Source: Glutamicibacter soli
GTDB taxonomy: Bacteria; Actinomycetota; Actinomycetes; Actinomycetales; Micrococcaceae
Direction of reading: 5' to 3'
Assembly (NCBI RefSeq): GCF_003309065.1
Contig: NZ_POAF01000001.1
Location: 496,001-560,000 of the forward strand
Length of the DNA: 64,000 bases
A model generated the notes under the pieces. That model saw only the letters and a program-made list of their open reading frames with translations. It made no database searches and had not been told where the DNA came from. A program made the position numbers and the translations under genes. This document shows positions 9,178 to 33,155 of the stretch, piece after piece (position 1 is the first letter of the stretch; each line of letters opens with the position of its first letter).

Positions 9178-11808
<2,631 letters not shown>

Positions 11809-11926: not shown

Positions 11927-14900
11927 TCAGCTGGCGGGAGCCAGCTTGGCCTGCAGCCGGATCTGTCCTTGGCATTCGCGGGCGAGCTGCTCGTCATGGG
12001 TGATCAGCACGACGGTGCGCCCTTCGAGCGCGCCGCGCAGGGTCTGCATCAATTCCACGGATTCGTCTTGGCCCAGGTGCGCGGTGGGCTCGTCCAGCAG
12101 GATCACCTGGTGCCCGCCCACCAGGGCGCGGGCCACGGCGAGCTTGCAGCGTTGGCCGCCGGAAAGCCGGTGGCCCCCGGAGCCGATACGCGTGTCCAGT
12201 CCCCCGGGCTGCTCGGCAAGCCAGCCGCCCAGGCCCACCTGCTGCAGCACGTCCTGGAGCTGGTCGTCGGAAACCTGCACCTCGTCCGCGGCGCCCAAGA
12301 GCAGGTTGCGGCGCAGCGTGGAGTCGAACAGGTGCGCTTCCTGCGGGCACCAGGCCACCGAATCCAGGTTCGCCGCGGCGAACTGGTGTTCCCGGCCGTC
12401 CGCATCCAGCGCGGCCAGGCGCCCGCCCTCCAGCGGCAGCGCCCCGAGCAGCGCGGTTAGCACCGTGGACTTGCCCGAGCCGGACGGCCCGGTCAGCGCG
12501 GTCCACTGGCCCGGTTCGATGCGGGCGGTCAGCTGCTCGATCACCGGGGCCTGCGGCCCGTAACCAAGCGACACGTCCTCCAGCACGAAGCCGCGGACAG
12601 CTGGCGCGCCGGCCGGGGAGGTCTCCCGCAGCCCGGCCTGGCCTTCGGCTGCGCTGCCCCCGACTCCGCGCGAGGCGAGGGTCGTGGTCAGTTCCTTCAG
12701 CGCCCTGCCCTGCTGCACGGCGCTCAGCGCGGCGGTGGCGGATTCGCCCAGGGCCAGGGCCATGAGCACGGCGAGCGCGGTGAAGGAGGCCGAGCTGGTG
12801 GATAGCTCCGCGAAGGCGACGGCCAGCGCGCCGGTCAGCAGCGCACCCAGGGCCGGGGCGAGGCCCTGGCCGAGCGCGTGGCGCCGGGCAGCCGAGGTGT
12901 TCTCGGATTCGGCGATGGCAAGCTTGTCCAGCACCCGGGCCAGCGACCCATAGGCGCGCAGCGCGCCCTGGTTGCGCAGGATGCCCAGCACGGCTTGGTT
13001 CACATTCAGCCGGTGGGCCAGCTGCCGGGCCAGGTGCAGGCCTTCGACTCGGCGCACGAGCCAGCGGCCTGGGAAGGCCAGCAGCAGTCCGGCGGCCAGC
13101 GCGGCCCAGCCGAAAGCGGGCTGGATGTAGAACAACACAGCGATGCCGGCGGCCCAGACGGCGACGGCCTGGATCGGCGGGAAGAGCACGCGGGCCAGCA
13201 GGTCGCGCAGCTCGTCGACCTCAGCCAGCAGGAAGCGCAGCACCACCGAGGAGCGGCTGACCAGTCCCCAGCGGGCGGGGTTGGCGACCATGGAGGTCCA
13301 GATCTTCTCACGCAGCGCCCCGGCGTAGCCGAGCACGGCGTCGTGGATGGCCAGCTGTTCCAGGTAGCGGAAGGCGGCGCGGCCGATGCCCAGGGTGCGG
13401 ACCATGACGAAGGCGACGGTCAAGTGCAAGATGGCCGGCTGGTAGCTGGATTCGACGATCAGCCATCCACTCAGTGCGGACAGGGCCACGGCGCACAGGA
13501 TGCCGAGGGTGCCGTAGACCGCTGCCTTGCGGGCCGGGGCGTAGCCGGAGAACAGCTCGCGCAGCGGATTGAAGCGCGGTGCGGGGCCGGCTGAAGCCGT
13601 TGGCGCAGCGGACGCCTGGGCTGACGGGGCCGCAGCCTGCCGGTTCACGAAGTCCCGGGCAGGCTGCGAAGCCTGCGGCGCGCCCTTCTCGCTGGCCTGC
13701 GACGGGTTGGCGGCCAGCAGCGGGTCGTGGCTGGCAACCAGCACGGCGGTGCCGGCCGGAAGCTCGGCCAGCACCTGGCGTACGGCAGCGGCGTTGGCCA
13801 TATCCAGATGGGCGGTGGGCTCGTCGGCCAGCAGCAGGCGGCAGTCTGGCACGCTGTGCAGGCGCAGCACGGCGCGCAGCACCTCCAGCCGGCGCAGCTC
13901 GCCCGGCGAGTATTCGGCGATCTGCCGCGGCAGCATGGTCTCGAGTTCCAGCCGGGCCGCCAGCTCGGCGACCAGCCGCTCCTCGGCGTCCGGGACGTCC
14001 TGGGCCAGCTGGGCCTCGCCGGTGGCGGCGTTGAACTGCGGGTGCTGGCTGATGACTGCCAGCTGGCTGCCCACATAGACCTGGCCGCTGACGCGGGCCG
14101 CATCGAAGCTGTTGTCGCTAGTGGAGGCCTCGGCGACCAGGCGCAGCACGGTGGTCTTGCCGGTGCCGCTGGCGGTGGACAGCAGCTTGCGCTCCCCCGG
14201 CATCAGGGTGAGGTCCAGGTGCTCGTGCACCGGTTCTCCCGCGCGGTAGCCGATGGACACGTCGCGCAGTTCCAGCAGGCTGCCCGGGGTCGCGGGTACC
14301 AGCGAGAGGATCTGGTGGTTTTCCTGTTCGGCGGTGATGGCCTGGTAGCGCTGGTAGGAGGCCAGCCCGTCGTCGGCGGCGTGGTAGGCGGAGCCGACCT
14401 CGCGCAGCGCGGAAAACAGCTCCGGGGCGAGGATCAGGATGATCAGGCCCGGAGCCAGGTCCATGCTGCCGCCGACCAGGCGCACGCCGATCATCACTGC
14501 CAGCACCGCCACTGACAGGGTGGAGATCAGTTCCAGCCAGAAGCTGGAGAGGAACACGGTTTTGAGATTGGCCATGGTGGCCTGGCGGTACTTTTCGCTG
14601 ACCGCGGCGATGGCGTTGCCGTGGCGGCGGGCGCGGCCCAGGCCCAGCAGGGCGGGCAGGCCCTGGGCCAGCTCGTACATCTGGTGGGCCAGCGCGTCGA
14701 GCTTGGACTGCGAGGCGGCCAGGGTGTCCTGGGTGTGCAGGCCGATCAGGGCCATGAACACCGGGACCAGCGGGATGGTCAGCAGCAGCACCACCGCGCT
14801 GATCCAGTCCAGGGACAGGATGTAGATGCCCAGCAGCGCTGGGAGCACCATGGCTCCGATGAGCGCCGGGATGAATTTGGTGAAGTAGTCGTCGAGCTTG

Positions 14901-15271
14901 TCGATGCCGTGGCTTGCCAGGGTTGCGGTGACCGGCACCGAGTGGTCGGCCGAGTCGGCCGGGACGATGCCCGGCCGGCTCGCCGCGGTGCGCACCAAGG
15001 TGGCGCGCATCCGCTCCTTGGCACCCAGCCCCATGCGCCGCGCCCCGGTGTTCAGGCCCCATACCCCGGCGGCGCGGCCCAGCACGCCGGCGGCGGCCAG
15101 AACCAGCAGCGCCGGGGTATTGCCGGTGCCGGAGGCCATGTTCGCGATCCACTGGCCCAGGCCGTAGGCGGCGAGCACCAGTCCGGCGGTCTTGAGCACC
15201 GAGAACACGGTGAGGACCACGATCTGGCGTGGAGCGATCAGCTCTCGGGGCAGGAAGCGCGGTGTGCGCAT
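11927..15271 (-). CDS. cydDC: Fused thiol-reductant ABC exporter CydDC
   Basis: A single 1114-residue protein joining CydD and CydC, the ABC exporter that moves cysteine/glutathione-type reductants out of the cytoplasm and is needed to assemble cytochrome bd. Each half has a membrane domain followed by an ATPase. Half 1: Walker A SGTGKTT near 367-374 and Walker B LLLADEPTAHLD near 480-490, with the signature changed to YSPGE. Half 2 starts after an Ala/Pro linker near 540-560: Walker A GPSGSGKST near 928-936, signature LSGGQ, Walker B ILLDEPTAHLG near 1060. The gene lies 36 bases behind cydB in the same operon. Fusion of the two subunits is known in actinobacteria. Confidence 0.93.
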   Translation of the reverse strand: MRTPRFLPRELIAPRQIVVLTVFSVLKTAGLVLAAYGLGQWIANMASGTGNTPALLVLAAAGVLGRAAGVWGLNTGARRMGLGAKERMRATLVRTAASRPGIVPADSADHSVPVTATLASHGIDKLDDYFTKFIPALIGAMVLPALLGIYILSLDWISAVVLLLTIPLVPVFMALIGLHTQDTLAASQSKLDALAHQMYELAQGLPALLGLGRARRHGNAIAAVSEKYRQATMANLKTVFLSSFWLELISTLSVAVLAVMIGVRLVGGSMDLAPGLIILILAPELFSALREVGSAYHAADDGLASYQRYQAITAEQENHQILSLVPATPGSLLELRDVSIGYRAGEPVHEHLDLTLMPGERKLLSTASGTGKTTVLRLVAEASTSDNSFDAARVSGQVYVGSQLAVISQHPQFNAATGEAQLAQDVPDAEERLVAELAARLELETMLPRQIAEYSPGELRRLEVLRAVLRLHSVPDCRLLLADEPTAHLDMANAAAVRQVLAELPAGTAVLVASHDPLLAANPSQASEKGAPQASQPARDFVNRQAAAPSAQASAAPTASAGPAPRFNPLRELFSGYAPARKAAVYGTLGILCAVALSALSGWLIVESSYQPAILHLTVAFVMVRTLGIGRAAFRYLEQLAIHDAVLGYAGALREKIWTSMVANPARWGLVSRSSVVLRFLLAEVDELRDLLARVLFPPIQAVAVWAAGIAVLFYIQPAFGWAALAAGLLLAFPGRWLVRRVEGLHLARQLAHRLNVNQAVLGILRNQGALRAYGSLARVLDKLAIAESENTSAARRHALGQGLAPALGALLTGALAVAFAELSTSSASFTALAVLMALALGESATAALSAVQQGRALKELTTTLASRGVGGSAAEGQAGLRETSPAGAPAVRGFVLEDVSLGYGPQAPVIEQLTARIEPGQWTALTGPSGSGKSTVLTALLGALPLEGGRLAALDADGREHQFAAANLDSVAWCPQEAHLFDSTLRRNLLLGAADEVQVSDDQLQDVLQQVGLGGWLAEQPGGLDTRIGSGGHRLSGGQRCKLAVARALVGGHQVILLDEPTAHLGQDESVELMQTLRGALEGRTVVLITHDEQLARECQGQIRLQAKLAPAS

Positions 15272-15307: not shown

Positions 15308-16333
15308 CTACTTGACGATCGGTTCCGGGTGGTGCGCCTCGGGGATGTGCTCCTCCTTGACGCGCTTGCGGAAGACCCAGTAGCTCCAGGACTGGTAGGC
15401 CAGCACCAGCGGGACGCCGAAGGCCGCCACGATGCTCATCAGCTTCAGCGTGTAGGCCGAGCTGGAGGCCGTGTAGATCGTCAGGTCGAAGGCCGGGTCC
15501 AGGGTGGAGGGCAGCACGACGGGGAACGCCGCAGTGAAGATCGCCGCCACCCCGGCGGCGAGCATCACGCCCAAAGCGATGAACGAGACGCCTTCGCGTC
15601 CGGCGCGGGCGGTGACGATGCTGACGACCAGGGCTAGCGCCGCGGCGGCCAGCAGGGCCCAAGCCACTGCCGAGTCATTGTCCAGCAGCACCATCAATAC
15701 CCAGGCCACCAGCGGCAGCACGGCCAGCGGCAGCCAGCGGGTGAACAGCCTGCCGGCGCGTTCGCGGACCGGGCCGTCGGTCTTCAGCCGGACGAAGGCC
15801 AGCGCGTGGATCCAGCAGAAGGCCACGACCGCCACGCCGCCGAGCACTGCGTACCAGGTCAACCACGCGAACGGTCCGCCCACGCGGTCGCCGTTCTCGT
15901 TCAGCGGCAGGCCCAGGGTGGTCAGCGCCAGCATGGCGCCCACGCCGAAGGCCGCGACCAGCGAGCCGTAGCCTAGGGCTGCGTCCCACAGCTTGCGCGA
16001 GCGTTCGGTCTTCGCCTTGCCGCGGTACTCGATGGACACGGCGCGGAAGATCAGCGCCACGAGCACGAGCGTCAGCGGGATGTACAGTGCCGAGAACAGC
16101 GAGGCGTACCAGTGAGGGAATGCAGCGAAGGTGGCGCCGCCGGCGGTGAGCAGCCAGACTTCGTTGCCGTCCCAGACCGGGCCGATGGTGTTCAGCAGGA
16201 CGCGCTTGCGCTTCTCGCTGTTCCTGCCCAGGCCGATGAGCATGCCCACGCCCAGGTCGAAGCCTTCCAGGAAGAGGTAGCCGCACCAGAGCACAGCGAT
16301 GAGGATGAACCAGAGAGCTGGTAGCCAATCCAT
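15308..16333 (-). CDS. cydB: Cytochrome bd ubiquinol/menaquinol oxidase subunit II
   Basis: The 341-residue second subunit of the membrane-bound bd-type terminal oxidase, which passes quinol electrons to oxygen with high affinity. The N-terminus matches the family (LPALWFILIAVLWCGYLFLEGFDLGVG), with conserved acidic residues D26 and the WDGNEVW motif (D55, E58) of the proton route. About eight to nine hydrophobic segments follow, ending in LMSIVAAFGVPLVLAYQSWSYWVF. It starts 27 bases after the cydA stop and is followed by cydDC, giving a complete cydAB-DC operon. Confidence 0.96.
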   Translation of the reverse strand: MDWLPALWFILIAVLWCGYLFLEGFDLGVGMLIGLGRNSEKRKRVLLNTIGPVWDGNEVWLLTAGGATFAAFPHWYASLFSALYIPLTLVLVALIFRAVSIEYRGKAKTERSRKLWDAALGYGSLVAAFGVGAMLALTTLGLPLNENGDRVGGPFAWLTWYAVLGGVAVVAFCWIHALAFVRLKTDGPVRERAGRLFTRWLPLAVLPLVAWVLMVLLDNDSAVAWALLAAAALALVVSIVTARAGREGVSFIALGVMLAAGVAAIFTAAFPVVLPSTLDPAFDLTIYTASSSAYTLKLMSIVAAFGVPLVLAYQSWSYWVFRKRVKEEHIPEAHHPEPIVK

Positions 16334-16360: not shown

Positions 16361-17962
16361 CTAGTAGGCGAAGGCGAGCACGTCGCCGTCGTCGTTCTTG
16401 TCGTGTGCCGGGCCGTCGGCGTCATCCTTGTCGGAGGCCGCGTTCAGCTCCGGCATGGCCGAGCCGACGCCGCCCCGGATGTACCGGGTGAGCAGGACCA
16501 GTTCAACTACCAGCAGCACGCCGTAGACGAGGGTCAGGGTGATCAGCGAGAAGAGCATCTCCCCGGCGCTGACCGTCGGCGAAACCGAGGCCGCGGTGTA
16601 CATGAAGACCTGGTCGATGCCGCCCATCTGCGGGTTCGGCGCCACGGTGAAGGGCTGGCGTCCCATTTCGGTGAAGATCCAGCCTGCCGAGTTCGCACCA
16701 AACGGGGCCGCGATGCTCAGCAGCGCCAGGCGGGAGAGCCACTTGCTCTGCGGCACGGTGCCCTTGCGGGTCAGCCACAGGGCCAGAGCCGCGGTGAGCG
16801 CGGACAGACCGCCCAGGGTGATCATCAGACGGAAGCCCCAGTAGGTGACTTCCATGACCGGCAGGTAATTGATCTCCTGGCCTGCGTACGGGCCGAAGTT
16901 CGGGTCCTCCGGATAGTACTTGCCGTATTTCTCCTGGTATTCGGGGATCAGTGTGTTCACGCCCTTGACCTCAGTGGTGAAGTCGCCGTTGGCCAGGAAG
17001 GACAGCAGGCCAGGCAGTTCAAAGGTGGCCACGATGTCTGCACAGTTGGTGGAGCCCGGAGAGGTGATATCTCCCAGGGTGAGCACCGAGAAGCCGGTGC
17101 CGTCATGGCAGGCTGCTTCGGCGGAAGCCATCTTCATTGGCTGCTGCTCGAACATGAGCTTGGCCTGTTCGTGGCCGGTCAGTGCCACGCCGAGGAACGA
17201 GACCATGGCGACGACGGCGCCGATGCGCAGCGACTTGATCCACACGTGGTAGTCGGTCTTGTCGCGGCTCTTGCCCTTGCTCAGGTCCTGCCCGACGACA
17301 ACGCGTCCCTGGGAGTCGACGGAATCGATGCCTTCCTTGCGGCGGCGGTAGAGGTGGAACCAGGAGATGCCCAGCAGGAAACCGCCGGCGACGGCGAATG
17401 CGCCGAAGAGCGTGTGCGGGAAGGTGATCAGCGCGGTGTTGTTGGTGAAGACCGCCCAGGCGTCGGTCATGACGGCCTTGCCGTCGATGATCTCAGCGCC
17501 GACCGGGTGCTGCATCCACGAGTTGGCGACCAGGATGAAGTAGGCCGAGAGCAGCGAAGCCAGCGCCGCGGCCCAGATCGTGGCAAGGTGGGCCAGCTTG
17601 GGAAGCTTCTTCCAGCCGAAGATCCATAACCCGAGGAAGGTCGATTCGACGAAGAAAGCCAGGAGGGCTTCCATGGCCAGCGGAGCGCCGAACACGTCGC
17701 CGACATAGCGGCTGTATTCGCTCCAGGCCATGCCGAACTGGAATTCCTGGACGATGCCGGTGGCAACGCCCATGATGAAGTTGATCAGGAACAGCTTGCC
17801 CCAGAACTTGGTCATGCGCAGCCACTGCTCGTTGCCCGTGCGGTACCAGACGGTTTGAAGCACCGCCACGGTCAAGCCCAGGCCCAGCGTCAAGGGCACC
17901 ATCAAGAAGTGGTACACGGTTGTAATGCCAAATTGCCACCGGGCAATCTCTAATGCATCCAT
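16361..17962 (-). CDS. cydA: Cytochrome bd ubiquinol/menaquinol oxidase subunit I
   Basis: The 533-residue haem-bearing subunit of the bd oxidase. Visible features are the haem ligand H18 (ARWQFGITTVYHF), conserved acidic residues E98 and E106 (MEALLAFFVES), H183 in FPHTLFGAF, the GRQPF motif in the quinol region, and many membrane helices. The periplasmic Q-loop is of the short type. The tail is acidic and Asp-rich (DKDDADGPAHDKNDDGD). It is the first gene of the cyd operon. The 419-bp gap to the divergent blaI gene contains a predicted promoter bracketed by two palindromes, suggesting repression by the neighbouring BlaI-family protein. Confidence 0.96.
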   Translation of the reverse strand: MDALEIARWQFGITTVYHFLMVPLTLGLGLTVAVLQTVWYRTGNEQWLRMTKFWGKLFLINFIMGVATGIVQEFQFGMAWSEYSRYVGDVFGAPLAMEALLAFFVESTFLGLWIFGWKKLPKLAHLATIWAAALASLLSAYFILVANSWMQHPVGAEIIDGKAVMTDAWAVFTNNTALITFPHTLFGAFAVAGGFLLGISWFHLYRRRKEGIDSVDSQGRVVVGQDLSKGKSRDKTDYHVWIKSLRIGAVVAMVSFLGVALTGHEQAKLMFEQQPMKMASAEAACHDGTGFSVLTLGDITSPGSTNCADIVATFELPGLLSFLANGDFTTEVKGVNTLIPEYQEKYGKYYPEDPNFGPYAGQEINYLPVMEVTYWGFRLMITLGGLSALTAALALWLTRKGTVPQSKWLSRLALLSIAAPFGANSAGWIFTEMGRQPFTVAPNPQMGGIDQVFMYTAASVSPTVSAGEMLFSLITLTLVYGVLLVVELVLLTRYIRGGVGSAMPELNAASDKDDADGPAHDKNDDGDVLAFAY

Positions 17963-18005
17963 CGGGTCCTCTGTATATATGTGTCGCGAGTTGGTTGATT
18001 GCCAA

Positions 18006-18024
18006 CTTCTACGCCCCGTAGAAA
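18006..18024. promoter_or_regulatory. Palindrome 1 (candidate BlaI operator)
   Basis: CTTCTACG-CCC-CGTAGAAA: the arms match at 7 of 8 positions around a 3-base centre. It lies immediately downstream of the predicted cydA -10 on the minus strand, where a bound repressor would block initiation. Confidence 0.6.
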
Positions 18025-18051
18025 TTAGCTCCCGTGATCACCATAGTTCAA
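18024..18051 (-). promoter_or_regulatory. Predicted cydA promoter
   Basis: On the minus strand TTGAAC (18046-18051) is followed by 16 bases and GCTAAT (18024-18029), a fair match to a vegetative promoter. Palindromes 1 and 2 abut it on either side. Confidence 0.5.
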
Positions 18052-18070
18052 TTTCGACAACATGTAGAAA
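18052..18070. promoter_or_regulatory. Palindrome 2 (candidate BlaI operator)
   Basis: TTTCGACA-ACA-TGTAGAAA: arms match at 7 of 8 positions with the same 3-base spacer as palindrome 1. It directly abuts the predicted cydA -35 element; its centre is 46 bases from that of palindrome 1. Confidence 0.6.
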
Positions 18071-18258
18071 TCGCGTCGGCCATGTCACTCGCGCGGCCCG
18101 GAAATCTGGGAAGCAGCCCTTAAAAATCAGGTTCGGGCGATTCTAAACCCGTAAACCGTTTCACGTCCACGGAAATTAAATTCCCCAAGTCAGCAAAAAG
18201 TACCCTTCATAACTTCAGCCGGAACGCCGCAAATAGGAAACGGCGTGCTCACAGAGCT

Positions 18259-18277
18259 CTTTTACGGTACGTAGAAA
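18259..18277. promoter_or_regulatory. Palindrome 3 (candidate BlaI operator, autoregulation)
   Basis: CTTTTACG-GTA-CGTAGAAA: the right arm is identical to that of palindrome 1 and the left arm matches at 6 of 8 positions. It occupies the -35 region of the presumed blaI promoter. Confidence 0.55.
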
Positions 18278-18294
18278 TATTGGTCAAATGCCGC

Positions 18295-18300
18295 TACAAT
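18295..18300 (+). promoter_or_regulatory. Candidate blaI -10 element
   Basis: TACAAT lies 17 bases beyond palindrome 3, whose right arm fills the -35 position; no canonical -35 hexamer is present. Confidence 0.45.
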
Positions 18301-18311
18301 GAGATTTCCAA

Positions 18312-18350
18312 GCACCAGATTTCACGTCGTTACGACGGGAGGCCTGGTGC
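18312..18350 (+). other. Nested inverted repeat in the blaI leader
   Basis: GCACCAG (18312-18318) pairs with CTGGTGC (18344-18350), and inside is the 6+6 palindrome CGTCGT-T-ACGACG (18325-18337). It lies between the presumed transcription start and the blaI start codon, so it could fold in the RNA or act as a DNA site. Confidence 0.4.
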
Positions 18351-18381
18351 GCAGCAACTAAAGCAAGTGAGGTACTACCTA

Positions 18382-18753
18382 GTGGCCAGCCTTGGCGATC
18401 TGGAACGCTCCGTCATGGACCTGCTGTGGGATTCCGCAGAACCACTCACCGCAAACGACCTCCGGGACGATCTTGCGGCACTTGGTACCGATGCAAAGGA
18501 ACTCGCAGTCACCACGGTTCTCACCGTGTTGGCACGACTGGAGAAGAAGGGCCTCGTGATACGCGAACGTACCACCCGCCCTCACCGTTACACCGCGTCC
18601 TCCACCCGCGAGGATCACACTGTGGGATTGCTCAACGACGCCCTGGGGACCGCCCAGGACCGCGAAGCAGTTCTCGCCCGCTTTATCGGCGGCATTTCAG
18701 CAGATGAAGCAGCATCCCTTCGTGCTATCTTGGACACTGTAAAGTCCGCCTAA
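18382..18753 (+). CDS. BlaI/MecI/CopY family transcriptional regulator
   Basis: A 123-residue winged-helix repressor of the BlaI (Penicillinase_R) family. The N-terminus (LGDLERSVMDLLWDSAEPLT) and recognition-helix region (ELAVTTVLTVLARLEKKGLV) are diagnostic, followed by the dimerisation half ending AASLRAILDTVKSA. Such repressors bind palindromes and are inactivated when cleaved after a partner M56 protease senses a signal. The GTG at 18382 is preferred because family members start right there; the frame stays open upstream to a TTG at 18280, but that would translate the leader. A gene for an M56 protease starts 23 bases after the stop. Divergent from cydA. Confidence 0.92.
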   Translation: MASLGDLERSVMDLLWDSAEPLTANDLRDDLAALGTDAKELAVTTVLTVLARLEKKGLVIRERTTRPHRYTASSTREDHTVGLLNDALGTAQDREAVLARFIGGISADEAASLRAILDTVKSA

Positions 18754-18776
18754 TTTACACGAACTTCGGGGACTGA

Positions 18777-19742
18777 GTGCTTCTCACCTCATATTTCCTA
18801 GCGGCGTTGGCTATCGCATTGGCGTGGCCAACGCCGCTGGCGTTGTCCAAGGCAAAATGGACCTCCCGTGCTCCCGTGCAAGCTGTCCTGCTCTGGCAGG
18901 CCATCGCACTTGGCGGTGGCTTGTCCATGATCGGCTCCATGCTGGTCTGGGGCCTGGCGCCACTGGGGAACGACCTGATCTCGGCGCTGATTGCCGGCTG
19001 GGGCTTGATCACCGGCGAACCCGGTGTCGCCTATCCCGGCGTCGTGCACCTTTTCGCCTTGAGCACCGCCCTGCTGTTCGGCTTCCATCTGGTGCTCACC
19101 CTGGCCCGCGCCGCATGGCGCACCACCAGACAGCGCGCCAAGCATCGGCAGCTGCTCCGCCTGCTAAGCAACCCTTCCGAGACCCGGCCCAATACCCTGG
19201 TGCTGGATCACGACATGCCGGTCGCCTATTGCGTACCGGGGATCGCCCAATCCGTCACCGTGCTCTCCCGCGGGCTGCTCACCAAGCTCTCCCCCGAGGA
19301 ACAGGCTGCGGTGATCGCCCATGAAAGCTCGCATCTGGACCAGCGGCACGATCTGCTGATCCTGGCGTTCACCGCATGGAACGAGGCGCTGCCCTGGCTT
19401 CCGACGTCCCGGCTGTCGCTGGACGCGGTGCGCCAGCTGATCGAGATGCTGGCCGATGACAAGGCTCTGGAACAGGTCAGACGCCAAACCCTGCTCAAGG
19501 CCATCGTCACCGTCGCGGCGGCCGCCGCCCCCGAGGCTCCGGGCTCCGCCGCCGCAGGTTCATCCAACGCGCAGCAGGTAGGGATGCCCGGCGGCGAAGT
19601 CTCCTCCCGTCGCCTGCAACGGCTGCTCACCCCCGAGGAACCGCTGGCTAAACCGCAGCGCGGCCTGGTCCTTGCCTGCACCGTGCTGCTCATGGTGTGC
19701 CCGACCGTCCTGCTGATCGCTCCGCGCCTGCTGGCTTGGTAG
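18777..19742 (+). CDS. M56 family (BlaR1-like) membrane metallopeptidase
   Basis: A 321-residue integral membrane zinc protease. Hydrophobic segments occur near residues 4-20, 33-60, 65-75, 90-112 and a terminal one at about 298-318. The zinc motif HESSH is at 182-186 and the likely third ligand is E223 in LIEMLADDKALE. There is no C-terminal penicillin-binding sensor domain as in BlaR1, so the signal is unknown. The start is GTG at 18777. With the upstream BlaI regulator it forms the usual repressor/anti-repressor pair, here placed against the cytochrome bd operon rather than a beta-lactamase. Inference: it cleaves or triggers loss of the BlaI protein. Confidence 0.88.
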   Translation: MLLTSYFLAALAIALAWPTPLALSKAKWTSRAPVQAVLLWQAIALGGGLSMIGSMLVWGLAPLGNDLISALIAGWGLITGEPGVAYPGVVHLFALSTALLFGFHLVLTLARAAWRTTRQRAKHRQLLRLLSNPSETRPNTLVLDHDMPVAYCVPGIAQSVTVLSRGLLTKLSPEEQAAVIAHESSHLDQRHDLLILAFTAWNEALPWLPTSRLSLDAVRQLIEMLADDKALEQVRRQTLLKAIVTVAAAAAPEAPGSAAAGSSNAQQVGMPGGEVSSRRLQRLLTPEEPLAKPQRGLVLACTVLLMVCPTVLLIAPRLLAW

Positions 19743-19826: not shown

Positions 19827-21980
19827 TTACACGTCGATGCGTTCGCGCTCCAGGTCTTCGGCTCCGGCGATGATGAAGCTCTTGCGCGGCGCGACGTCCG
19901 AACCCATCAGCAGGTCGAAGATCTCCTCTGCCTGCTGGGCGTGCTCGATGTTCACCCGGCGCAGCATGCGGTGGCGCGGATCCATGGTGGTTTCGGCCAA
20001 CTGGTCCGCATCCATCTCACCCAGGCCCTTATAGCGCTGGATCGGTTCCTTGTAGCGCCGCCCCTCGGCTTCGATCTTGGCCAGCAGGCGCTGCATCTCG
20101 GCTTCGGAATAGGTGTACACCACTTCGTTCTGCTTGGATCCGGGGTTGATGATCTCGATGCGGTGCAGCGGGGGAACCGCCGCGTACACGCGCCCATGCT
20201 CGATCATCGGCCGCATGTAGCGGTAGAACAAGGTCAGCAGCAGGGTTCGGATGTGCGCGCCGTCGACGTCGGCATCGGTCATCAGGATGATCTTGCCGTA
20301 GCGGGCCTGCTCGATGTCGAAGCTGCGGCCCGACCCTGCGCCGATCACCTGGATCATCGCCGCGCATTCGGCGTTCGAGAGCATGTCGGAGACCGAGGCC
20401 TTCTGCACGTTCAGGATCTTGCCGCGGATCGGCAGCAGCGCCTGGAATTCGCTGGAGCGAGCCAAGCGGGCGGTGCCCAGGGCGCTATCGCCCTCGACGA
20501 TGAACATTTCGGAACGGCCGACTTCCTTGCTGCGGCAGTCCAGCAGCTTGGTTGGCAGCGACGAGGATTCCAGCGCGGTCTTGCGCCGTTGGGTTTCCTT
20601 GTGCATGCGGGCCGAGACGCGGGATTTCATCTCGTTGACGACCTTCTCCAGCAAGGAGGAAGCCTCGGCCTTCTCACTGCGCTTGCTGGAGCCGAGGCGT
20701 TCGTTCATGGCCTTTTCCAGAACCTTGGAAACCACCTGGCGCACCTGGGGCGTGCCCAGGATTTCCTTGGTCTGGCCCTCGAACTGCGGCTCGGCCAGGC
20801 GCACGGTGAGCACTGCGGTCATGCCGGCCAGGACGTCATCCTTCTCCAGCTTGTCCTTCTGGCCGAACTTCAGCTTGCGGGCGTTGGCCTCGACGTTCTT
20901 GCGGAACGACTTCAGCAGGGCCTGCTCGAAACCGGTCGTATGGGTTCCGCCCTTGGGGGTGGCGATGATGTTGACGAAGCTGCGCAGCGTGGTGTCGTAG
21001 CCAATCCCCCAGCGCAGCGCGACGTCGACTTCGCACACGCGCTGCACGTCCTCGATGTGGCTGCGGCCGTTCTCGTCGATCACCGGGACCTTCTCGTGGA
21101 AGGAGCCGCTGCCGTGGAAACGCCAGATATCAGTCACCGGCGAATCGCTGCTCAAGAAGTCGACGAACTCGCTGATGCCGCCGTCATGCTGGAAGACCTC
21201 TTCGTGAGGCCCTTCGGCCCCGGGGGTGCCGGGCAGGCCGCGCTCGTCGCGCAGGGTGATGCGCAGTCCTGGAACCAGGAACGACGTCTGGCGCGCCCGG
21301 TCCTGGAGGTCGGTATAGGAAAATTTCGCGTCCGGAGTGAAAATGTAGTTATCCGCCCAGTAGCGAATGCGCGTTCCGGTGACTCCGCGTTTAGCCTTGC
21401 CGATGACCTCCGGCGGGGTGGCCTTTTCGTGCGGGATGAATTCCGCATCGAACTTCTTGCGGCCCTTGTCCACGAAGGCTCCAGGCTCGCCACGGCGGAA
21501 CTGCATGGCGTAGGTCTTGCCGCCGCGGTCCACTTCGACATCGAGCCGGGAGGATAGCGCGTTGACCACCGAGGCGCCCACGCCGTGCAGGCCGCCGGAG
21601 GCGCTGTAGGAACCGCCGCCGAACTTGCCACCAGCGTGCAGCTTGGTGAAAACGACCTCTAGGCCGCTCAATCCGGTTTTTGGTTCAACGTCTACCGGAA
21701 TGCCTCGGCCGTCATCCTGGACCTCGACCGATCCGTCGCTATGCAGGATCACGTTGATCGATTGGCCGAAGCCGCCCAGGGCTTCGTCAACCGAGTTGTC
21801 GATGATTTCCCACAGGCAATGCATCAGGCCGCGGGAATCGGTGGAACCGATGTACATACCCGGCCGCTTGCGCACGGCCTCCAGGCCTTCAAGAACCGAG
21901 AGGTGGCGGGCGTTGTAATTTTCGGATGAGGCCACTGGGCTGCTGTCTCCTACTGACGCGAGAAAAGAACTACTTTGCAT
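19827..21980 (-). CDS. parE: DNA topoisomerase IV / type IIA topoisomerase subunit B
   Basis: The 717-residue ATPase subunit. GHKL motifs are EIIDNSVDEALGG, DDGRGIPVD and GGLHGVGASVVNALS; the TOPRIM metal motifs are EGDSALGTAR and MTDADVDGAHIR; the C-terminus has YKGLGEMDADQL and ends with DVAPRKSFI. The sequence EGDSALGTARLAR...LPIRGKILNV with Leu after EGDSA is typical of actinobacterial ParE, while gyrase usually reads EGDSAGGSAK. It converges on the M56 gene; its partner parC lies about 8 kb away on the other strand with the cyd block between. The start at 21980 is the family-plausible ATG; the first 20 residues are variable. Confidence 0.92.
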   Translation of the reverse strand: MQSSSFLASVGDSSPVASSENYNARHLSVLEGLEAVRKRPGMYIGSTDSRGLMHCLWEIIDNSVDEALGGFGQSINVILHSDGSVEVQDDGRGIPVDVEPKTGLSGLEVVFTKLHAGGKFGGGSYSASGGLHGVGASVVNALSSRLDVEVDRGGKTYAMQFRRGEPGAFVDKGRKKFDAEFIPHEKATPPEVIGKAKRGVTGTRIRYWADNYIFTPDAKFSYTDLQDRARQTSFLVPGLRITLRDERGLPGTPGAEGPHEEVFQHDGGISEFVDFLSSDSPVTDIWRFHGSGSFHEKVPVIDENGRSHIEDVQRVCEVDVALRWGIGYDTTLRSFVNIIATPKGGTHTTGFEQALLKSFRKNVEANARKLKFGQKDKLEKDDVLAGMTAVLTVRLAEPQFEGQTKEILGTPQVRQVVSKVLEKAMNERLGSSKRSEKAEASSLLEKVVNEMKSRVSARMHKETQRRKTALESSSLPTKLLDCRSKEVGRSEMFIVEGDSALGTARLARSSEFQALLPIRGKILNVQKASVSDMLSNAECAAMIQVIGAGSGRSFDIEQARYGKIILMTDADVDGAHIRTLLLTLFYRYMRPMIEHGRVYAAVPPLHRIEIINPGSKQNEVVYTYSEAEMQRLLAKIEAEGRRYKEPIQRYKGLGEMDADQLAETTMDPRHRMLRRVNIEHAQQAEEIFDLLMGSDVAPRKSFIIAGAEDLERERIDV

Positions 21981-32767: not shown

Positions 32768-32786
32768 TTTCTACAATGCGTCGAAC
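32768..32786. promoter_or_regulatory. Palindrome 4 (weaker match to the cydA-blaI palindromes)
   Basis: TTTCTACA-ATG-CGTCGAAC: the left arm is exactly the reverse complement of the right arm of palindrome 2, and the right arm matches the consensus at 6 of 8 positions. It covers the -35 position of the TACTCT element for the small membrane protein gene. Confidence 0.35.
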
Positions 32787-32804: not shown

Positions 32805-33155
32805 ATGACTTTTGCAATCTCTTTCCTCGTATTCCTGCACATCCTGGGTGCGGCAGCGATCTTCGGCGGCTGGCTGGCCAACTTCAAGACCCCTACTGTC
32901 AACGTGTGGCAGTGGTACGGCGCGCTGCTGCAGGTGATCACCGGCCTGGCTCTGGTAGGCATCTACGAAGCGCAGGACGCTGACGTCAACCACATCAAGA
33001 TCGGCGTGAAGGTCGTCATCGCCCTGGGCATCGCCGTGGCCGCCTTCATCGGCCGTAAAAAGGTCAAGGCAGGCCAAGAAGTCTCCACCGGCATCGCCCA
33101 CGCAGTCGGTGGGCTGGCACTGGTCAACATTGCCGTCGCAGTGCTCTGGAGCTAA
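32805..33155 (+). CDS. Small integral membrane protein, function unknown
   Basis: A 116-residue protein with four hydrophobic segments (about 4-25, 37-55, 63-82, 92-115). The first helix contains histidine in FLVFLHILGAAAIFGGW, a pattern seen in small haem- or redox-linked membrane proteins as well as in uncharacterised DUF families. Homologues are common in Arthrobacter, but I cannot name a function. A weak copy of the cydA-blaI palindrome precedes it. A perfect hairpin terminator separates it from the convergent kinase gene. Confidence 0.78.
   Translation: MTFAISFLVFLHILGAAAIFGGWLANFKTPTVNVWQWYGALLQVITGLALVGIYEAQDADVNHIKIGVKVVIALGIAVAAFIGRKKVKAGQEVSTGIAHAVGGLALVNIAVAVLWS

Follow-up and report, generated by a model that had tools for sequence, protein, structure and literature searches.

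The question raised by this locus is what a BlaI-family repressor and an M56 membrane protease, whose family names suggest beta-lactam resistance, control beside the genes of cytochrome bd oxidase. The initial annotation, made from one 64-kb stretch of DNA (the window), read the pair as a repressor/anti-repressor circuit acting on the oxidase through a repeated palindrome. Here this reading is assessed by profile searches, structure prediction and comparison with related genomes.

Organization of the locus

The cyd/blaI-M56 module is flanked by a gyrA/parC-type gene (9178-11808) and a gyrB/parE-type gene (19827-21980). Its genes are:

11927..15271, minus strand: cydDC, a fused ABC exporter gene; one 1114-aa ORF above the cut-off of both NCBIfam CydD and NCBIfam CydC
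15308..16333, minus strand: cydB, cytochrome bd subunit II (Pfam PF02322; TIGR00203)
16361..17962, minus strand: cydA, cytochrome bd subunit I (Pfam PF01654, 503.6 bits)
18382..18753, plus strand: blaI, Penicillinase_R/BlaI-family repressor, 123 aa, GTG start (Pfam PF03965, 71.5 bits)
18777..19742, plus strand: M56 membrane protease gene, 321 aa, HExxH at residues 182-186, without a sensor domain (Pfam PF05569)

These coordinates and the Pfam and NCBIfam matches agree with the divergent arrangement of blaI-M56 and cydABDC described initially. The blaI start is best taken as the GTG at 18382 because the conserved N-terminus opens with MASLGDLERSVMDLLW. The remark that no beta-lactamase lies nearby can be extended to the whole genome, in which a search with PF13354 detected no class A beta-lactamase.

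The BlaI and M56 proteins

The PF03965 score of BlaI lies well above the family cut-off of 22.6 bits, and Foldseek matches the protein to 2g9w, MecI and BlaI. The nearest solved structure is 2g9w, the M. tuberculosis BlaI (Rv1846c), with an E value of 2.5e-29 and 41% identity over the Foldseek alignment. BlaI F101, kept in every one of 22 orthologues, lines up with MecI F102; in S. aureus, cleavage falls at the Asn-Phe bond N101-F102 of the C-terminal domain. BlaI of this locus contains no cysteine.

The M56 protein carries the zinc-protease residues H182, E183, H186, E223 and D227, which are invariant in 41 sequences. Its predicted structure has a pLDDT of 91.7, and the top Foldseek match is S. 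aureus BlaR1. The model shows only about four helical membrane stretches and ends in a membrane-type helix. The proposal that this protease lacks a penicillin-binding sensor domain is borne out by the Pfam search, which gives only M56/M48 over the 321 residues. No metal-binding motif was identified in either BlaI or M56.

A second BlaI-M56 pair, at locus L319 (G000:C19, ~396124), adjoins DsbA-like and DsbD_TM/CcdA genes and has its own repeated dyad, ACTATG-N3-CATAGT, ~90 bp upstream.

Operator sequences between cydA and blaI

The three 19-base palindromes of the initial annotation are present at the positions claimed in the 419-bp cydA-blaI gap. They differ from its 19-mer by one (O1), three (O2) and two (O3) mismatches, and the whole 64-kb window contains only 4 matches to that 19-mer, compared with 0.06 expected. 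Two or more palindromes were obtained in 0 of 2000 shuffles of the gap. The 187 copies found in relatives define a 17-bp consensus, TTCTAC-R-NNN-Y-GTAGAA, in which the 5-base CTAC-to-GTAG spacing was correctly given; this gives TAC-N5-GTA and does not match the canonical BlaI/MecI operator TACA-NN-TGTA (TAC-N4-GTA). The elements of the gap are:

18007..18023 (19-mer 18006-18024), no strand: operator O1, TTCTACGCCCCGTAGAA; exact, upstream of cydA, conserved in relatives
18053..18069 (19-mer 18052-18070), no strand: operator O2, TTCGACAACATGTAGAA; one mismatch, found in all 8 sampled genomes of the genus
18260..18276 (19-mer 18259-18277), no strand: operator O3, TTTTACGGTACGTAGAA; one mismatch, upstream of blaI, found in all 8 sampled genomes of the genus
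18272..18300, plus strand: promoter-like TAGAAA-17-TACAAT for blaI; a consensus match only, its first hexamer overlapping O3

The overlap of O3 with the first hexamer of the promoter-like sequence suggests autorepression of blaI. Two inverted repeats unrelated to the operator also occur, AGTTGG..CCAACT upstream of cydA (window 17989-18007) and TCACGTCG..CGACGGGA in the blaI leader (window 18322-18340).

Conservation in related genomes

A search for BlaI over 149 genomes of the family gave a match in 131, and the orthologue set comprised the 83 loci whose BlaI shows 50% identity or more. In 75 of these 83 loci cydA is divergent to blaI, and exact TTCTAC-N5-GTAGAA is found in 74 of the 75 divergent gaps, in one to three copies that are often 21-26 bp apart; among shuffled gaps no dyad was common to more than four. 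Chance palindromes are ruled out by this conservation together with the window expectation and the gap shuffles given above. An organism-named set of 80 loci, which overlaps the first set and includes Arthrobacter, Pseudarthrobacter, Kocuria, Sinomonas, Nesterenkonia, Micrococcus and others, shows the divergent order in 70 loci, an exact operator in 76 and an M56 gene in all 80. Gene order and palindrome, first noted in a single genome, are thus strongly retained among its relatives.

The cydA-blaI gene order reaches other families of the order, several of which have the same operator. In more distant families the divergence and the 5-bp spacing are kept and the half-sites drift, for example to TACGAC-N5-GTAGTA in L363. 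Across the phylum, the exact 17-mer occurs at background level outside the order.

The operator follows BlaI

A site serving only local autoregulation of blaI is ruled out, because cydA keeps operators when it lies away from blaI: in three genomes with the two genes apart, cydA has two or three operators and blaI has its own. Conversely, in 11 genomes without BlaI no operator was found upstream of cydA (0/11), even when two mismatches were allowed. Genera g6 and g15 each include genomes of both kinds, and in them operator and BlaI are missing together inside a single genus. Genome-wide, exact sites average 5.35 per genome in 127 genomes with a BlaI orthologue and 0.11 in 18 genomes without one, the reversed pattern giving 0.46 per genome as a control; p-values on these site counts overstate independence because the sampled genomes share ancestry. 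The pairing is imperfect, since cydA has an operator in four genomes, all of one genus, whose only BlaI is distant (~40%).

Two genera show further variants. In genus g12 (L081 3873-7713) a distant BlaI and an M48/M56-type protease adjoin genes for a DyP peroxidase, PCu(A)C and CopC; CTAC-N5-GTAG sites precede blaI and copC, and cydA lies elsewhere in these genomes with an exact operator. In genus g13 (L156, L157) a diverged cydA (~41%) has two operators, and four of the six genomes of this genus are without cydA yet contain up to 15 operator sites.

Candidate regulon beyond cyd

Exact sites outside the cyd-blaI gap lie mostly shortly upstream of genes, many of them respiratory by Pfam and NCBIfam annotation. 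In relatives, the genes that follow exact sites include hmp (flavohaemoglobin), hemQ, a His_Phos gene paired with YceI, ResA-like thioredoxins, SURF1, the UbiA-family ctaB, COX2 (ctaC), qcrC, CtaG/CopD, SufR with an ABC transporter, isocitrate lyase, a universal stress protein and a Pyridox_ox_2 protein. In one genome the operator accompanies a Cg1360-like ATP-synthase-associated gene, whose family match is below cut-off.

Two of these genes illustrate the dependence on BlaI. An exact operator lies 50-82 bp upstream of hmp in 9 of 9 close orthologues from BlaI-containing genomes, compared with 0 of 8 from genomes without BlaI; two distant hmp-like genes (~40% identical) in BlaI-containing genomes have no operator. 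A site accompanies 13 of 22 hemQ orthologues from BlaI-containing genomes, being exact in 9 and having one mismatch in 4, compared with 0 of 8 from genomes lacking BlaI; hemQ of the window's own genome has no site.

The pattern search of the window's genome gave four places with exact sites: the cyd-blaI gap, hmp, a CopC operon and a Pyridox_ox_2 gene. Nine of the 13 one-mismatch sites outside the cyd gap were examined. Five of the nine precede ferrochelatase (hemH), ctaE (COX3), ctaB, SufR/ABC and a 116-aa membrane protein; of the remaining four, two are within genes and two precede other genes. The site before the 116-aa protein lies within the window:

32769..32785, no strand: further operator TTCTACAATGCGTCGAA, one mismatch; 19 bp before a conserved membrane-protein gene
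32805..33155, plus strand: 116-aa membrane protein (MTFAISFLVFLHILGAAA...), candidate regulon member; no Pfam family

This type of protein is also found downstream of exact operators in other genomes (L181, L185, L189, L191, L132 and L134). A family of 115-142-aa membrane proteins (VKGPLMFSAFWAV.../VKAPLIFS...), with no Pfam match, follows operators in many genomes (L166, L179, L200, L211 and others). Judged from the distribution of sites, the circuit probably extends well beyond the cyd operon, a feature missed initially.

Proposed mechanism and alternatives

We propose that the pair is a BlaR1-type switch, made of a repressor and a sensorless M56 protease, that is dedicated to respiration, not penicillin resistance, and is released when the bc1-aa3 branch fails; we assign this reading a probability of roughly 0.78. 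BlaI dimers would bind the 17-bp operator and repress cydABDC, their own operon and further operator-bearing genes of heme, copper and respiratory function. Failure or inhibition of the main bc1-aa3 (heme-copper) branch would activate the M56 protease, which would cleave BlaI, and loss of BlaI would derepress the bd oxidase, which needs no copper, together with the flavohaemoglobin that detoxifies NO and the genes for oxidase assembly. Comparative sequence evidence shows the operator and its BlaI dependence, the candidate regulon members and the predicted fold and active site of M56. The finding that the operator follows a displaced cydA and disappears with BlaI favors the circuit first suggested for cyd. 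Direct binding by BlaI, repression as the sign of control and proteolysis by M56 are inferred; operator position would also be compatible with activation at some promoters. The inducing signal can only be guessed from what the regulon contains: its combination of an oxidase that needs no copper with NO detoxification, heme synthesis and assembly of the heme-copper oxidase suggests bc1-aa3 failure as the trigger.

The best rival concerns this signal and leaves the wiring intact. Low copper, acting through M56, would induce genes for copper uptake (CopC/CopD, PCuAC) and for assembly of the oxidase, as well as the bd oxidase that works without copper. CopC, CtaG/CopD, SURF1 and ctaB are among the candidate targets, and in one genus CopC and PCuAC genes accompany a distant BlaI and its M48/M56-type protease. 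The M. tuberculosis gene sigC, reported to belong to the BlaI regulon, protects against copper starvation, and cyd and atp genes are raised in a sigC mutant when copper in the medium is scarce (PMC7924339). However, hmp, hemQ, ferrochelatase and the ATP-synthase-linked target suit a broader respiratory signal, and neither protein has an identified metal-binding motif. A copper trigger is considered rather unlikely.

That the operator belongs to another regulator, such as an unlinked redox, NO or oxygen sensor, with blaI as a mere target, is less probable still. Such a regulator would account for the cydA site kept in the four genomes with only a distant BlaI, but the number of operators tracks the presence of BlaI, also inside the two mixed-state genera, and the site precedes blaI wherever blaI sits. 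An ordinary beta-lactam-responsive BlaI/BlaR pair, lying near cyd by chance and directed mainly at a beta-lactamase or cell-wall gene, fits the family names and the control of blaC by M. tuberculosis BlaI (PMC8265638; PMC5473688), but is highly improbable given the conserved gene order, the operator at respiratory genes across genera and the M56 protein without a penicillin-binding domain, and beta-lactamase control is rejected for the window's genome by the empty PF13354 search.

Comparison with known systems

The respiratory switch proposed here shares with the CopY/CopR copper repressors its Pfam family and a palindromic TAC/GTA operator. However, BlaI scores only 25.5 bits against the NCBIfam CopY_TcrY model, for which the cut-off is 121.95, and CopY recognizes the operator RNYKACANNYGTMRNY with TAC-N4-GTA spacing and senses copper through a C-terminal CxC (PMC7253601), whereas the BlaI of this locus is cysteine-free. 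S. aureus BlaI/MecI and BlaR1/MecR1 likewise combine a winged-helix repressor with an M56 protease, and Phe is retained at the MecI F102 position. Unlike the S. aureus systems, the pair has no extracellular penicillin-binding domain and no beta-lactamase target, and its operator spacing is TAC-N5-GTA; the canonical BlaI/MecI-type form is TACA-NN-TGTA (PMC7253601).

The closest parallel is M. tuberculosis BlaI/BlaR (Rv1846c/Rv1845c), with which the pair shares the nearest BlaI structure, a sensorless protease and a probable link to cytochrome bd. According to Sala 2009, as cited in PMC5473688, M. tuberculosis BlaI binds the cytochrome bd and ATP synthase promoters and the mycobacterial BlaR (Rv1845c) has no sensor domain; the link to the ATP synthase operon is also given in PMC12565901. 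Respiratory control by BlaI is therefore not new in kind, and the initial annotation had missed the M. tuberculosis BlaI-cytochrome bd link as PMC5473688 relates it. M. tuberculosis BlaI differs in that it also represses blaC, whereas no class A beta-lactamase is present here and blaI is divergent from cyd. In the literature searched, in which Sala 2009 is represented by citing papers, no earlier BlaI-cyd report outside mycobacteria was found, nor any report of this operator and the wider hmp/heme/cta regulon. As far as this literature goes, the novelty lies in the divergent placing of cyd and blaI that Micrococcaceae conserve, in a 17-bp operator whose half-sites are 5 bp apart and which is missing where there is no BlaI, and in a respiratory regulon of this breadth in a genome free of class A beta-lactamase.

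It is possible, and we suggest it tentatively, that actinobacterial BlaI-M56 pairs are at root membrane sensors of heme-copper branch failure, with the M56 membrane core doing the sensing and mycobacterial beta-lactamase control added later. The activation of the sensorless M. tuberculosis BlaR-type protease is given as unknown (PMC5473688); the Micrococcaceae pair is of the same kind, and its broad respiratory regulon and clear operator point to respiration as the signal. The operator together with blaI offers a simple genomic read-out of how cytochrome bd, which contributes to tolerance of respiratory drugs, is controlled, and the Micrococcaceae pair provides a harmless, culturable system in which sensorless BlaR-type activation can be tested.
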